Part shown: positions 43,177 to 63,631 of the stretch, piece after piece
Numbering within the stretch: the stretch's first letter is position 1
Layout: every line of letters starts with the position of its first letter
From: Porphyra umbilicalis
Lineage: Eukaryota; Rhodophyta; Bangiophyceae; Bangiales; Bangiaceae
Length of the DNA stretch: 64,000 nt
Direction of reading: 5' to 3'
Assembly (NCBI GenBank): GCA_002049455.2
Contig: KV919000.1
Coordinates: forward strand, 59,384 to 123,383
Notes under the pieces: model-generated
Told to the model about the DNA's origin: nothing
The model's database searches: none
Seen by the model: only the letters and a program-made list of their open reading frames with translations
Translations under genes and position numbers: made by a program

Positions 43177-43706
43177 GCCGACTGCCGGCGGCCGCTGCCG
43201 ACTGCCGGCGGCCGCTGCCGACTGCCGGCGGCCGCTGCCGACTGCCGGCGGCCGCTGCCGACTGCCGGCGGCCGCTGCCGACTGCCGGCGGCCGCTGCCG
43301 ACTGCCGGCGGCCGCTGCCGACTGCCGGCGGCCGCTGCCGACTGCCGGCGGCCGCTGCCGACTGCCGGCGGCCGCTGCCGACTGCCGGCGGCCGCTGCCG
43401 ACTGCCGGCGGCCGCTGCCGACTGCCGGCGGCCGCTGCCGACTGCCGGCGGCCGCTGCCGACTGCCGGCGGCCGCTGCCGACTGCCGGCGGCCGCTGCCG
43501 ACTGCCGGCGGCCGCTGCCGACTGCCGGCGGCCGCTGCCGACTGCCGGCGGCCGCTGCCGACTGCCGGCGGCCGCTGCCGACTGCCGGCGGCCGCTGCCG
43601 ACTGCCGGCGGCCGCTGCCGACTGCCGGCGACCGCTGCCGACTGCCGGCGACCGCTGCCGACTGCCGGCGACCGCTGCCGACTGCCGGCGACCGCTGCCG
43701 ACCGCC
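43177..43706. repeat. 20-bp minisatellite, about 26 copies
   Basis: The unit gccgactgccggcggccgct is tandemly repeated with almost no variation from 43177. The last four or so units carry ggcgaccgct instead of ggcggccgct, and the final one ends ccgccagcg. Because 20 is not a multiple of three, all frames on both strands stay open and give 20-residue periodic peptides. It begins just past the 3' end of the ankyrin gene. I do not call these frames genes. Confidence 0.97.
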
Positions 43707-43732
43707 AGCGTGGGCGGCAGGGGACCGGGCGC

Positions 43733-46581
43733 TCAACGTCCCACATGAGACGGCGCGCTCGCTGGGCGAAGGCGGCGGCGACGGTGGCCATGCGCCGACG
43801 GGGCGGGGGGCGGGGTCACCCCCCCCCCCCGCCCCCCCCCCCCCCTGTCGGCCGCCATCGCCGCGGCCGCCGCCGCCGCCGCCGCCTGCGCGCGCACCAG
43901 GAACCCAACGGTTGCCGTGCGGAGGCCGCGTGAGCGCGACACCCCCCCCCCCCCAGAAAGGAGCAGGTCGGCCAACTCGGCCGGCCGCGCCTCGTCCGCC
44001 ACCACCACCCCGTCAATGTCGTGGGCGACGGCCGCCGCCGTGACGGCCGTCTGAAAAGCGGCCGCGCGCGCGGTCGGCCGGTTGCGAAAGACGTAGGCGG
44101 TGAGGCGGGCGGCGAGGGCGGCTTCATCGGCCGACTCGATGCCGACGGTCGGGTCCGTGCCGGGGGGGGGGGGGGGGGCGCCCCGCCCTCCCCGCCTTGC
44201 GCCACGGAAGTGGCGGGGGTGGGTGCGCACGAGGCCGCAGCCCCGCCCGTGGGCGCGGGGGCGTCGGCCGTGGGGGGAGGTGGTGAGGGGCGGTCCCTCC
44301 CGTGGGACTCGGATGGGCGTGGGGTGGCCGGCCGGGGGCCGGCCGCGCCTTCCACACCCGCCGCCACGACTCCGTCGTCGCTCCCCGCGCTCCCATCCCC
44401 CACTACGCTGTCGCCGCCGCCGCTGTCGCCGCCGCCGCCGCCGCCGCCGATGCAGCCGGCGGGCGGCCACTCGGCTTGGGCGTTCTCCACATAGGCGAGC
44501 GCCGCGCGGATGTCGGCCAGGGGCGCGCCCCCGAGGGCGGCGGCGGCGGCGCTCGGCGCCGCGAGGGCGGCCTCGTCGAACACCTCCCGCGCGGCGGCAA
44601 TGTTGGCGCCGTCTGCCAAAAACGTGTAGGCGGCGCCCGCCATGGCCACGGACCCAAGGATGGGCGTGGCGGCGGTGGCCGCTGCGTCGGCAATGGCGGC
44701 GAGCGATGCGCCGACGAGCGGGGCGAGGCTCACCCCAATCTTGACCGCCGCCGTTGCCACGGCGACGCGCTTTCGTTGCTGCTCCGCCGCTTCGAGCGCC
44801 GCCCGCAGGTCCCGCACGTTGTCCAACAGCCGCTGGGCGGCACCAAAGAGCGTGTCTTGGTCCGACTCGACGCGACCGAGGCGGCGTGCGAGCGCCGCCA
44901 AGTCCGCCTGCACCGCCACGTCGTAGCTAAGGAAGGATAGCAGGCGCATGGCGTCGGCCGTGTCGAGGAAGCGCGCGGCACGTGCGTCGCGCACGACCGC
45001 TGCGGCGATGGGGACTTCGGTGGGGTCCAGGCGCCGCACGACGGCAAAGTAGACGCTCATGTACAGGTGCTCGTGTAGCGTATGGTCGGTTAGCGGCGCC
45101 AAGTCGTTGACCTGGGCAGCGAGCTTGAGCAGCCCATGAGCGATCGTCAGGGTGTGGAGGTCCACAACTTGGCCGCCAGTGACCGCCTCCGTGACGGCAT
45201 CGACGGTGGCGGACTCGGGGTGGGCGATGAAGCGCGCCCGCGCACGCTCAAGGGAGCACCGGTGCGCCTCGGCCGGGTCGGGCAGGTCGGCCGGCCCCTC
45301 CAACGGTGGCCTCTGGGTGGGTAGGCGCGGGTTTGCGGCCGACTCTGACGGCGGCACCCCCGTCGAAGCCATCTCGTTGGACGAGGCGACCGATACCGCC
45401 ACGGAGGATCGCCACGGACGCCGAGTGCGCCGCGCTCGCCATCGACCAGCCATGGACGTTGACGCGCGGTCAGGCACCACGAGAATGTCCTCGGTAGGGG
45501 CGATCGAAGCCGCGGCCGAGGATGTCGCCCGTCGCCGCATCAAACAATGATACCAGCGGCTGCCCAGTGTTGCTGTGGACGAGCCATCTTCAACCGGGAG
45601 GCCGTTTGATGAGGCGTCCGACGCCGTGGCCGAGGAACGCCTATGATGGCGCGGCCGCCGCAGCCGCTGCCGGCTGCCGACTGTCCTGGTGGACGCCGCG
45701 CCCTCCACCGTCGCAGCGTCGTCAGCGCTCTCCGCGGGGCGATCCATTGCCACTATCTGGGAGTCGTTCGCTGAAGCGGAGGAAGAGATGTGTTGCGAAA
45801 GACACGGAGCACCGTTCATCGGCCGCCGTGGCTGCGGCTGGGAGCCTGGCGCCGAACTAAACGTGTCTGCAGGCACCCAGGCAACGTCGACGAGCTGGTC
45901 CCGCTGCAGCGGCCCCGTGATGCTCACGGTTGACAGCGACGAGCTGCCGGCTTCCGGTGTGGTGCTGCGCATCGCAGGGTCACTCGATGCGCCAGCCATC
46001 CCCGGCCCGACCGGCAGAGGGCAGCACCTACGCCGAATCTCCACCAGATCGTCGCCGAGCTCTTTAACCGCCGGGAGCCGCTGCTCCGACGTCAGCACCG
46101 CCGTGGTTGGTACATTCCGCAGGGACTTCCTCTTCTTCACCGCTCCGATCGAGGCCCCCCACGCAATCAGCAGGTCAACCGTTGTAGGAGCCGGGTCGTA
46201 GCTGCTCCTTGAGATCGGCTTGAGAGCGTAGCTGAGTGGCGTTCGACCCCATCGATCATATGCGTCGACATTTGCACCGGCTGCCAGCAACGTCTTGGTC
46301 ACATCGGCATGGCCCGCTTCAGCGGCCAAGTGCAAGGCAGAGATGAGGGACACGTCAGCAGAGGCGTTTGACAGCATACCAGCAGCTAGTAAGAGGCGCA
46401 CAATGTCGTCCTTCCCCGAGCGCGCGGCCACGAGTAGGGGGGTGCGACCCAGGCCGTCAGTCGCCGTAAGCACCACATCCGGATTGGCGTTGAGGGCAAG
46501 AATCACGAGCACATCATCTCCCGCCATGCAAGCATTGTACAGGCCGTCAATGTCCTCCGGGCGCGCCTCAAACGACTCCAT
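43733..46581 (-). CDS. Ankyrin-repeat protein with helical domain and C-terminal module
   Basis: The start ATG at 46581 gives MESFEARPEDIDGLYNACMA. About four ankyrin repeats follow (GLGRTPLLVAARSGKDDIVR, ISALHLAAEAGHADVTKTLL, DRWGRTPLSYAL) within residues 10-135. A Ser/Arg/Thr-rich disordered stretch comes next, then from about 45150 an all-helical region (HGLLKLAAQVNDL, VAVQADLAALARRLGRVESD, NVRDLRAALEAAEQQRKRVA). It ends in a small Ala/Gly-rich hydrophobic region (IGVSLAPLVGASLAAIADAA). After a Gly/Ser/Pro linker the frame changes at the G run about 44161-44178. The C-terminal module follows, from EAALAARLTAYVFRNRPTAR through FQTAVTAAAVAHDIDG to RTATVGFLVRAQA. C runs at 43817-43845 hide the last residues and the stop. 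Function unknown; the architecture suggests an adaptor or signalling protein. Confidence 0.75.
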
Positions 46582-47330
46582 CCGGCCCGGCCAGCACCGC
46601 GCCCGGCTGTCGTTGGCCACCAAAGGGAAGTGAGGCCTCACAGGCACTGGAACGTGGCACGAACTGGGGTTGTATCCAGCAGTTGCGACCGCTTCACGCG
46701 CAACGCTGCCTCAAGAATCTATACACAAAGACGAAGGGGAGGCAGAGTGGTGCTATCAAGTGGTGCGCACATCAAAACGAGCAGCGGCCGAGCCGCGGAC
46801 TGTCCGCGTTTCCAAGGAACCACTCGTTGCCAGGCGAATCCTCCCAGTCCGCCACAGTCCTCGTGCAGTGTCATGCAACTGGTCACCAGTACTCACGGTG
46901 AGTACAGCTACATGACACTGCACGAGGACTGTAGTGTCACCTCGTTGGGCACGCATACGGTTCGTGGCGGCCATGACGTGCCCTGCCGAGGCTCGTCAGT
47001 CCAGTCTAGAGGCCACGCCGACATTGTTGCCTGCAGGCGATCGTAATCCCGCCGTAATTGGTTATCGACAAAGGGAGAAATTAATTACTCTTTCGAGGTG
47101 GGAAAGGAGTTATTGAGTCGCTGGACAACGAAGCTTTTTCCCAGACAGGAGACATGCGCACAGGATATGTGGTGGTTTGAGCCAGAGCGCGAATGTCTCG
47201 CCTCTGAGGCGCCCTTGTGGGGGTTCTTGCGGGCAGCCACAGAAATATGGGCCATTATTGGGGAGTCCCACGCCGCTGTCCCACAAGACAATTTTCGGCA
47301 ATAACGGCATGGTGCTACCCTCTGTATCAT
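46582..47330. other. No supported gene; contains a foldback
   Basis: Upstream region of the minus-strand ankyrin gene up to the retrotransposon end. Apart from the hairpin at 46854-46932, only short shadow frames are present. Confidence 0.35.
46854..46932. repeat. Foldback: 22-bp perfect inverted repeat with a nested hairpin
   Basis: 46854-46875 (acagtcctcgtgcagtgtca plus tg) pairs exactly with 46911-46932. The 35-bp loop contains its own palindrome, gtactcac-g-gtgagtac. It is a compact double hairpin, of MITE-remnant type. Confidence 0.85.
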
Positions 47331-56438: not shown

Positions 56439-59835
<3,397 letters not shown>

Positions 59836-62800
59836 ATGGGTGGCGTCAAGACCACCCCCGGGGCGCTGTGTCGGCTCGGTCTGCCCCCCGACTGTCGACA
59901 CAAACAAGAAAGGCGGTGCATGGCCGTCTGAGCCGGGACGGGCATCCCCTCCCAGCAGACGTGGCGTGGCTCCAAGCCAAAATTTCCGCCTACCCCGCGC
60001 TGCTGACAGACTCCCTCGACGACGAAGGCCGCACCGCCCTCCACGTCGCCGCGTCTGCCGAGCACGTCCCCTATGTCGACGCGCTCCTCGACGCTGGCGC
60101 GCGCGTCAATGCCAAAATGCGGTGCGGCCACACGCCCCTGTGCATGGCGGCAACCGGCGCATGCGTCGCGACGGTGCAGGCGTTGCTCGGTGCGGGCGCG
60201 CGCGCCGGCCGCCGCTCCGAAGACGACATGACGCCGCTGCTGTTGGCGGCAGAGTCGGGCAAGCCGACGGTTGTCGCGGCGCTGCTGGCGGCGGACCCGC
60301 CGCCCGACCCCGCGGCGGTCAACACGGACGGGGCGACGGCGTTGGTGCTGGCGTTGCTCAACGCCCCGAGCGTGGTGCGGCAGCTCATCAAGGCGGGCGC
60401 GCCGGTCAACGCGCGCATGCCGGGCGGGTGGACGGTGTTGATGGAGGCGGCGCACCGGGGGCTCATGGGCCACCTCGACGCGCTGCTCGACGCGGACGCG
60501 AACGTGCACGCCGTTGCCGATGACGGCACGACGGCGTTGCTGGCGGGTGCCGACGCCACCACCTCTGCGTCGGCCGTCGTGCGGGCGCTGCTGGCCGCCG
60601 ACGCTGACCCCGCGGTCGTTGGCGGGCGGCTGCGGCGGTCCCCCCTGTACGCCGCCGCCGAGGCGGGCCTCTGGGTGGCCGTCGAGGCGCTCCTCGCCGC
60701 CGGCGCCCCCGTCGACACGCCCGCCCGCGACGGCTCCACGCCGCTCATGGTCGCCGCCCAAAACGGGCACACGCGCGTCGTGCGGGTGCTCCTCGCAACC
60801 ACCGCCCGCCGCGGGCGCCCCGACGTTGGGAGGCGGCGCGCCCGCGACGGCATGACCGCCTTGCACTTTGCAGTGTTGCACTCGTGGCACCCCATTGTGC
60901 ACGCGCTCCTCGGCGCGCGCGCGCCCGTCGACGCGGTGAGCGCGTCGGGGCACACGCCGCTGCACTTGGCGGCGGAGCGGGCGGCGCCCGACGCGGCCGA
61001 CGCGCTCCTCGCCGCGGGCGCGTCGGTGGGGGCGGCAACGCCCGACGGCGTGACGCCGCTGCACTTGGCGGCCGCCAATGGGGTGCTGCCGATTGTCGAC
61101 GCGCTGCTGCGCGCGGGGGCGGTGCCCGACGCGGCCGCCGACGATGGGCGGACGCCGCTCGTGGACGCGGCGGACGAGCGGCGGCTGGACGTGGTCGCCC
61201 GCCTGTGGCCGCTGACGTGGTGGCGGCAGCGGGCGGCGGCGGACGCGCGGCGGCTGCGGTTGGCGACGGCGGCGGGGGTGTTGGCGTCCATGGCCGCGGG
61301 CCACGGGGGGTGGTGGTGGGGGGAGGGGACGGCGGGGGGGCACCCGCGGAGCAGGAGGGCAGTGGGGACAGCAACGGCGAGGAGCCGCCGCCGCTCGACG
61401 ACGCCGGTAGTGGCACTGCTAGCGACGGCGACGCTGCCCCGTCCATGGTCGCCCGCCCGGCTGTGGCGGTCCGGGGGGGGGCGCCGCCGGCCGGCGCGGT
61501 GGCCGCCGCCGGCCGTCGGGGGACGATGGGGGCGACCCCGCGTCGGCCGCCGACGCCCGGTCGTCGGCGGCGCGTCGCGGGCGGGGGCGCGCTTGGGCGC
61601 TCGCCCGCCGCGACGGGCGGGCGGGGGGGAGCGGCGCCGGCGGCGCCGCGTCGGCAACGGCGGCGCCCCGCGCGTCGTGGCACCAGGAGCCGTCGGCGTC
61701 TGCGCCAGACGCCTCGGACGCGACCGCGCCCGCGTCGGCGCCGCCCGCGTCGCCGTCTGACGCGCGGCGCGGGGGCCGCTTTGCACCCTCCGCGTCGTCT
61801 GCGTCGGCTGCGTCCCCCGCCTCCCGGTCGCCGTCCCCCCCGCGCCGCGCGTCGCGCCGGCGGCACCGACGGCCGGGGGCGTCCCCCCCGTCCGTCTCCC
61901 CACCCCCGCGGCGGCCGTCGGCGCCGCGGGCGCGCCGGCACGCGCGCCGCGCCACGGTGGGGGGCGGCGCGGCGGGCGACCGCCGGGGGCTCGACGGCGC
62001 CGTCGCCGCCGCCGCCGCCGCGCGCCGGCGGTCGGCGCCGGCGGCGGGGTCAACCGCGTCGCCGTCGGTCGGGTCGGCGTCGCCCCACCGCCCGCCGCCG
62101 CGGCGCGGCCGCGGCGCCGTGGCGGGCGCCGCCGACGGGGCCGCAACGTCCCTCTCCGCCCGCCGCCACCGACGGCAGGCGGCGTCGCCGTCATTGTCAC
62201 CGTCGCCGCCGCATCGGCGGCGGCGCCGGCCGCCGTCGCCGCCCCGGGGGCGGGCGGGTGCGCCCGCGTCGCCGCGGCAGCGCGCTGCGGGCGCTGCCGC
62301 CGCCGCCGCTGCGGCGGCGGCCACCACCGCGCCACCGCCACGCGCAGCGGCGGCGGCACGGACGGGGCCGCTCGACCACTTCTTGACGCCCGTGACGCCG
62401 CTGGCAACGCAGACACCCGCGCGTGCCGCGGCCCCCGCCGGTTCCGCACCGACGCCGGTGGGGCGCCCGCGGCCTGGGGTGCCGCCGCCGCTGCCGCCGT
62501 CTGGGCCGGCGGCGGCGGCGGCGGCGGCGACGGCGGCGGTGGCGCCCGCGCCTGCTCCCGCCCGGCCGCCGCCGGCCGTGACGGCACTGGCGGCGCCGAC
62601 GCCCGCGCCCCCGATGCGGCGTGCCGTGCCGGCGGCGGCGCCGCATCGGCCCCCTGTGCCGCCCGCGTCTGCAGCAGCGCCGGCAGCGGCGGCCGCTGCC
62701 GCCCCGCAGCTGCCGCCGCCTCCTCCCGCCGCGCCGGCAGACGTCAAGTCCGAACCCCCGACCGACGACAGCGACTATTGGACGACGACCGACGGGGAGG

Positions 62801-63631
62801 ACGGCGAGCGGGACGCGCCGCTGTCGTCTGTGGCGGCGGCGGCGGCCGCGGGGCGGGCGGGCGGTCCGGCCGCCGCGTCGACCGCGGATCGCGCGGCGGC
62901 ACTGGCGGCCGCACCGGCGGCGGCGGCGGCGGCGGGCAAAGGGCCGGCCGGGGGGGCTGCGGCCGCACCCGCAGCCTCCCTTGACGGGTGGCGGCGGACA
63001 AAGCAGCGCCCGCCGGCGCCGCCGCCCATCATCATCATTGACGACAGTGACGACGAGCCGGTGGTCGTCGTCGAACCGCGGCCCGCCAAGCGCGCCCGCG
63101 TGGAGCCCCCGGCGGCCACCGCCGCCGCCGCCGCCGCCAGTGTGGCGGCCACGCCCGCCGCGCCCGCCGGTGCCGGTCCCGCCGCCACCGCGCCCGACCC
63201 CGTCGAGGGCGACGTCAAGCGCGACGTCAAGCGCGCCGTCAAGGCGGATCCCGGCGCCCCCCCCCCCTCCCCCCCTCGCGACGGTCATCCGGTACACGCC
63301 CGCCGAGTTGGCGGCGGCGGTCATTGCGGACGTGGGGTTTGGGATGGCCCCCGCGTCGCGCGAGCGCCTCGCGACGGCCGTCCACCGGGGCGCGGCGGCC
63401 GAGGAGGTGACGGGGCGCGTCGCGGCGGTCGGCGACCCGGCGGCGGTGGCGGGGTGGCTCCTCCAATTCTACCCGCGCGGCGGCGCGGGGGCGGTCCCGT
63501 GTGGCACGCGCAGCATCGTCGTGCACTTTTTGCGGGAGCTGCAGGCGCAGGGGTGGGGGGGGGGGGGGGGGGGGGCGGCCGCCCCCCGGGGGGGGGGTGC
63601 CGCCCGGGGGGGGGGTGCCACGGGCTGCTGA
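59836..63631 (+). CDS. Large ankyrin-repeat protein with disordered middle and C-terminal module
   Basis: About 11 ankyrin repeats lie between 59990 and 61200 (DEGRTALHVAASAEHVPYVD, GHTPLCMAATGACVATVQAL, DGSTPLMVAAQNGHTRVVRV, SGHTPLHLAAERAAPDAADA). The likely start is ATG 59836 (MGGVKTTPGALCRLG) in another frame; a short intron ending at cctcccagcag before ACGTGGCGTGGCTCC would join it to the repeats, but this is not proven. After the repeats, G runs (61311-61345, 61473-61480) change frame into a long Ser/Arg/Pro/Ala-rich disordered region. This contains acidic DDSDYWTTTDGEDGE, a SUMO-interaction-like IIIIDDSDDE and a basic PAKRARVE nuclear-localisation-like motif (near 63030-63110). After the C run at 63258-63277 the C-terminal module follows: ELAAAVIADVGFGMAPASRE, LATAVHRGAAAEEVTGRVAA, RSIVVHFLRELQAQ. 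The frame ends at 63631 after G runs and may really continue past the window. Confidence 0.65.

Follow-up and report, generated by a model that had tools for sequence, protein, structure and literature searches.

A predicted helical C-terminal module common to ankyrin-repeat, GATA-finger and transposon proteins of the red alga Porphyra umbilicalis

Tankyrases carry ankyrin repeats, a SAM domain and a PARP domain, in that order, and two-gene DNA transposons such as PIF/Harbinger encode a second, DNA-binding protein in addition to the transposase. The typical binding surfaces of SAM domains are the mid-loop and the end helix, and these domains can polymerise, as ANKS3-SAM is reported to do (PMC4105859). 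Here we describe a 64,000-nucleotide stretch of the P. umbilicalis genome (contig KV919000.1, positions 59,384 to 123,383; hereafter the window), which lies on contig C240 in the numbering used below, where C-numbers denote contigs. The window holds two ankyrin genes whose C-terminal modules, A and B, are homologous as judged from their sequences, each being a copy of the same module of about 85 residues. This module is one protein domain and no chance likeness, most likely a diverged, enlarged, SAM-like connector of five helices, for which we propose head-to-tail joining.

Module A is read in the minus-strand open reading frame (ORF) 43733-44470 and module B in the plus-strand ORF 62621-63631. 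All peptide strings quoted for the two modules by an earlier, sequence-only reading are present. Their local alignment spans 83 columns and contains one 1-residue and one 3-residue gap, so that it is not quite the nearly gapless match that had been described. BLASTP aligned A with B over 60 columns at an E value of 0.005. The BLOSUM62 local score was 62, which none of 2,000 shuffles of both sequences reached (mean 31.2, standard deviation 5.9, maximum 59). Raw pairwise scores do not set the pair apart within the window: with B as query, two unrelated alanine-rich slices scored 67 and 63, against 62 for A, and with A as query, an unrelated alanine-rich slice scored 55, against 53 and 51 for slices holding parts of B, the slicing having cut through module B. 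Because unrelated slices score as close, the pair alone is marginal evidence.

The homology of A and B is settled by profiles of relatives from other loci, which pick out these two alone. Run against the 927 ORFs of the window, a profile built from four further ankyrin proteins found only B (E = 9.4e-18) and A (4.8e-14), the next match being at 0.47, and thus bore out the claim of a common C-terminal module, at about 85 residues rather than the 80 or so first estimated. A profile made without either module gave E values of 1.2e-21 for B and 1.6e-9 for A. When 14 modules of the GATA-type and short genes described below were used against the same 927 ORFs, B scored 4.3e-17 and A reached only a domain E value of 0.023. 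In both window genes the order is ankyrin repeats, low-complexity linker and module; the sequence-only reading had the same order, with a linker that it called disordered.

Searching the 83.8-Mb genome with tblastn (queries: modules B, A, C268, C188 and C253; E ≤ 1e-3) gave at least 30 module loci. The C253 locus was matched by query A at 5.5e-9 and by query B only at 0.07; C60 is one further locus, which passed the core profile (2.4e-13). Single matches above about E 0.002 were counted only with a profile test, because some weak matches of the C268 module lie antisense to copia-like gag-pol. There were 31 such matches (E 0.002-0.9), all to about the same part of the query, and none was counted; the three that we read (C4, C119 and C165) are antisense to Ty1/copia-like gag-pol genes, named by eye, and we assume that the remainder are alike. 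A relative on a viral contig (L065) matched over 31 residues within a phage tail-protein-like ORF and was taken as chance, and no module relative was found in a separate collection of genome contigs. One glycine is invariant in an alignment of 24 modules. In the unrooted module tree, ankyrin modules fall on one side of a branch with weak support (67/75) and short-gene modules on one side of another (91/89); the GATA type needs two changes, and several branches are long.

A Pfam scan took in 17 module proteins besides A and B, one of them (C10) of transposon type. Ankyrin repeats and module share one open frame in 4 of the 17 (C196, C253, C188 and C200). A GATA zinc finger (PF00320) lies over cut-off upstream in the module's frame at C268 (3.9e-13), C151(-) (3.7e-11) and C117 (2e-6), and at C137 finger and module fall, by their positions, within one 717-residue frame. 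The finger of C38(+) was below cut-off (0.037), and that of C205(-) was recognised by eye only. Genome-wide, 14 GATA loci exceeded the cut-off, two half-matches at C205 being counted as one; the module occurs at 4 of these, and none is listed at the other 10. C38(-), the middle gene of C205, C151(+), C193, C89, C60 and C10 had no Pfam match at E ≤ 0.1. The C61 protein (L045, 3092-4585) shows, by eye, two repeats of about 90 residues without a Pfam family at the same threshold. A PF13665 match on C205 (E 0.08, below cut-off) was taken as low-complexity noise. Of the earlier proposal, a family of several proteins is supported by the genome examined, and an ankyrin-only family is not, since GATA-finger, Pfam-less and transposon proteins carry the module as well.

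Module genes stand head to head at C38 (L042), C95, C70, C20, C211 and C205 (L047); the other genes at C95, C70, C20, C211, C155 and C224 were classed by module likeness. Such pairs join a GATA-type module gene to a short one whose motif combines psi-K-x-E and RRR, and at C268 finger, psi-K-x-E/RRR motif and module are united in one protein. A DUF676 esterase-like gene (1.1e-14) lies between the paired genes at C38. We asked whether the GATA-type/short-gene clusters might be large mobile elements: C38 and its relatives align only over short segments (68-387 bases) that fall mostly at the modules, and the same comparison found no inverted ends at these clusters. C95, C70 and C211 have whole 3.2-kb stretches in common (98 and 92%), so some of these clusters have been duplicated recently.

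For the fold, no Pfam family matched the module over cut-off, SAM_1 (PF00536) and SAM_2 (PF07647) included, which tells against a SAM domain. Genome searches with SAM_1 and SAM_2 listed five other loci only and no module locus, and sequence searches of the PDB with the module returned nothing credible. The best model of B has helices at residues 7-18, 24-41, 45-50, 53-61 and 74-89, in keeping with the helical module foreseen by the sequence-only reading, and five of the six top rows of its structural matches are SAM domains. The model of A has four helices and is poor (predicted local distance difference test score of 57); no SAM domain was among its structural matches, which we do not take as a sign of another fold. 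When hhalign was used to compare the module profile with three of the genome's five SAM loci, E values were 0.0017 (36 columns) and 0.00087 (62 columns), with probabilities of 15.5 and 23.5% and with 0 and 1 of 150 shuffles as high, respectively. This comparison bears on collinear features that would be expected of a SAM domain, listed by eye as an N-terminal helix, a glycine after helix 2 and a Gly-x-Arg starting the end helix. The stretch after the invariant glycine is acidic in 22 of the 24 aligned modules (neutral in B), and the last stretch is basic in 22 of 24. Taken together, the model, the hhalign results and the charges suggest, but do not prove, that the module is a SAM domain that has diverged and grown larger. 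The remark of the sequence-only reading that it knew of no named domain with this pattern holds for Pfam sequence searches, but the evidence on the fold points to SAM.

The module's range beyond ankyrin proteins extends, to our surprise, to a transposon. A repeated gene (C29 type) with the module at its end occurs at 24 loci (26 rows at E ≤ 1e-3, four of them fragments that belong to two loci). Four C29-type modules were scored with a profile built from the other 23 modules; three gave 7.6e-8 to 5e-5, the fourth being that of C76 (below), and profile-profile comparison of core and transposon modules gave E 5.4e-7 (probability 92%; 0 of 120 shuffles as high). Copies on C197 and C8 have 6,943 alignment columns in common at 99.5% within unrelated flanks. 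Comparison of their ends defined a 6.94-kb element (C197:54739-61679) with inverted ends CATATTGTC..TGCGCCAAAA, in which the module gene lies tail to tail with a DDE_3 transposase (PF13358, 1.5e-10 for the C197 copy); it is an IS630/Tc1-mariner-like DNA transposon. By eye, its second gene looks multi-exon, with a cysteine-rich exon, a linker exon and a module exon.

Transposase linkage was counted on the 150 of 371 candidates that were scored. A relative of the transposase lies within 2 kb, tail to tail, at 19 of the 24 C29-type copies and at 9-11 kb from two more; three have none near. More distant transposases (36-39% identical to the query) lie within 7 kb of 8 of the 22 GATA-type and short-gene loci, against 0.6-1.4 expected. 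These eight are not eight independent events, because the transposases involved are seven distinct ones and near-copies (C95 and C70) are counted separately. None of nine ankyrin and other module loci has a scored transposase within 7 kb, and the window has no related transposase at E ≤ 1e-3. At C76 (L077, 1598-2164), a module-like last exon lies beside a transposase; its profile E value of 4.5 leaves it unsupported alone. The exon has diverged too far for the profile to recognise it; the family of elements may have a greater age and reach than the 24 loci show.

Three other explanations bear on these results. Unrelated alanine-rich slices do equal the pairwise scores, as a likeness of A and B by composition only would predict, but that explanation has practically no chance left: profiles of other loci select A and B alone and refute it, C61 is matched by both A (6e-4) and B (9e-4), and the C253 module as query matches A at 5e-9. 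Alanine-rich composition was among the findings that the sequence-only reading named as able to undo its proposal, and it is ruled out by the profile of other loci. The module might instead be helical without any kinship to SAM, while still serving regulators as a tail for protein binding, and its SAM likeness would then reflect a common helical arrangement; the silence of the Pfam SAM families would agree with this, but the SAM domains among the structural matches of B and a module-SAM profile match above shuffles make it the less likely reading.

It is quite possible, if short of probable, that the module began as a transposon domain, borne by the second gene of the IS630/Tc1-mariner-like element, and that ankyrin and GATA genes of the host captured it later, or that the element took it from the host. 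The tail-to-tail arrangement in most C29-type copies, the inverted ends, the agreement of core and transposon profiles and the excess of related transposases near GATA-type and short-gene loci all favour such a history. The nine ankyrin and other loci without a scored transposase nearby weigh on the other side, and the unrooted tree leaves the direction of transfer unsettled. Either history is compatible with a SAM-like connector.

Taking the connector as the preferred reading, we infer a SAM fold, polymer formation, cross-binding and a nuclear place. In the mechanism proposed, the acidic middle part that follows the invariant glycine would dock on a neighbouring module's basic end helix, so joining modules head to tail; an acidic middle and a basic end are the pattern expected for such joining. 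Ankyrin proteins (client holding), GATA-finger proteins (DNA binding) and the second transposon protein (cysteine-rich exon) might then assemble, each kind with its own or with the other kinds, and would probably do so in the nucleus. The same helical tail on all three kinds of protein suggests mutual docking through a common connector. Nine psi-K-x-E sites occur in 7 of 18 sequences, against 1.2 expected, and several sequences have basic clusters; together with IIIIDDSDDE in the linker of B, these hint at nuclear, SUMO-linked proteins. In that linker, VKSEP is presumably a SUMO-acceptor-like motif, and we take IIIIDDSDDE to resemble a SUMO-interacting motif and KRAR to be nuclear-signal-like. 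We advance only tentatively the further idea that, with the same SAM-like connector on the transposon's second protein and on host ankyrin and GATA proteins, the element borrows host regulatory assemblies for its targets or expression, or that the host tamed the element's protein into regulators, connector-connector binding linking both.

In both window genes, the module lies outside the ankyrin reading frame (Table 1). A codon-usage frame profile trained on four intact family members tracks the ankyrin frame of gene A from 46.65 kb to about 44.3 kb, though weakly around 45.5 kb, before passing to the module frame; the single change falls at the run of 17 C. For gene B, the best frame runs 0, 2, 1, 2, with switches at about 61.3, about 61.5 and 63.26 kb, the last at the C11-T-C7 run. 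The signal of its ankyrin ORF fades at about 61.26 kb, and between 61.5 and 62.25 kb it is weak, with no steady best frame. The window has many long C or G runs, and homopolymer errors in the assembly are our preferred reading of the frame changes; introns or real frame changes are also conceivable. The ankyrin ORF of gene B is the probable N-terminal part of the protein ending in module B, and the fusion of the two parts, which frame changes separate, is accordingly a probable one.

Table 1. Features of the two ankyrin genes, in window coordinates
Feature	Position	Strand	Basis
Module A, C-terminal SAM-like module of first ankyrin gene	43874..44143	-	pairwise alignment, BLASTP, profile
ORF with ankyrin repeats (Pfam Ank_2 5.8e-14), Pfam-less middle part and low-complexity linker	43816..46647	-	Pfam, codon usage
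Run of 17 C (minus-strand reading), from ankyrin frame to module A frame	44162..44178	-	sequence, frame profile
ORF with 10 ankyrin-repeat stretches (Pfam Ank; Ank_2 2.4e-55)	59232..61760	+	Pfam
Low-complexity linker from ankyrin part to module B, read in frame 1, with weak coding signal up to ~62.25 kb	61534..63258	+	
VKSEP in B linker (psi-K-x-E)	62743..62757	+	
IIIIDDSDDE in B linker	63028..63057	+	
KRAR in B linker (basic)	63088..63099	+	
C11-T-C7 run, near change from linker to module B frame	63257..63275	+	sequence, frame profile
Module B, C-terminal SAM-like module of second ankyrin gene	63281..63550	+	alignment, BLASTP, profile, model

Between the ankyrin repeats and linker of gene A, the middle part (about 44590-45290, minus strand) is helical-looking and partly hydrophobic, with no Pfam match over cut-off; from inspection by eye, membrane association is conceivable. 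Just past the 3' end of gene A lies a tandem array (43177-43710; 20-base unit, 26.7 copies, 99% match). Elsewhere in the genome, phycobilisome-linker matches numbered 12, four of them on C665 (taken as plastid), and they mark the genome as that of a red alga.

The accessible parts of two algal transcription-factor surveys (PMC8304369 and PMC4827209) do not mention the module, and no paper on such a module appeared among the literature matches listed, as far as titles and the beginnings of abstracts indicate. A domain unnamed in Pfam, at 30 gene loci and 24 transposon-gene copies, offers a handle on regulator assembly in red algae. It also raises a testable question: do DNA transposons and their hosts have an assembly domain in common because one captured it from the other, and do their proteins then bind?

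Among known systems, the SAM domains of Polyhomeotic PHC3 (4pzo) and of liprin/CNK2 are 7-13% identical to the module over 66-71 aligned residues, with no match at the sequence level. ANKS3 and ANKS6 (PMC4105859) are alike in having ankyrin repeats, a linker and a small helical C-terminal domain, and in the head-to-tail assembly that we propose for the algal module; the latter differs in being about 15 residues longer, in being unmatched by SAM profiles and in occurring also on GATA-finger and transposon proteins. Tankyrase (PMC4980433 and PMC9712121) is likewise an ankyrin scaffold that assembles through its SAM domain, whereas no PARP domain is listed in the scanned algal ankyrin carriers and the algal module is the last domain. 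PIF/Harbinger-type transposons resemble the algal element in having a second gene beside the transposase, the algal one with a cysteine-rich exon that looks zinc-binding by eye; the algal transposase, in contrast, is of the DDE_3 family, and the module forms the end of the second protein.
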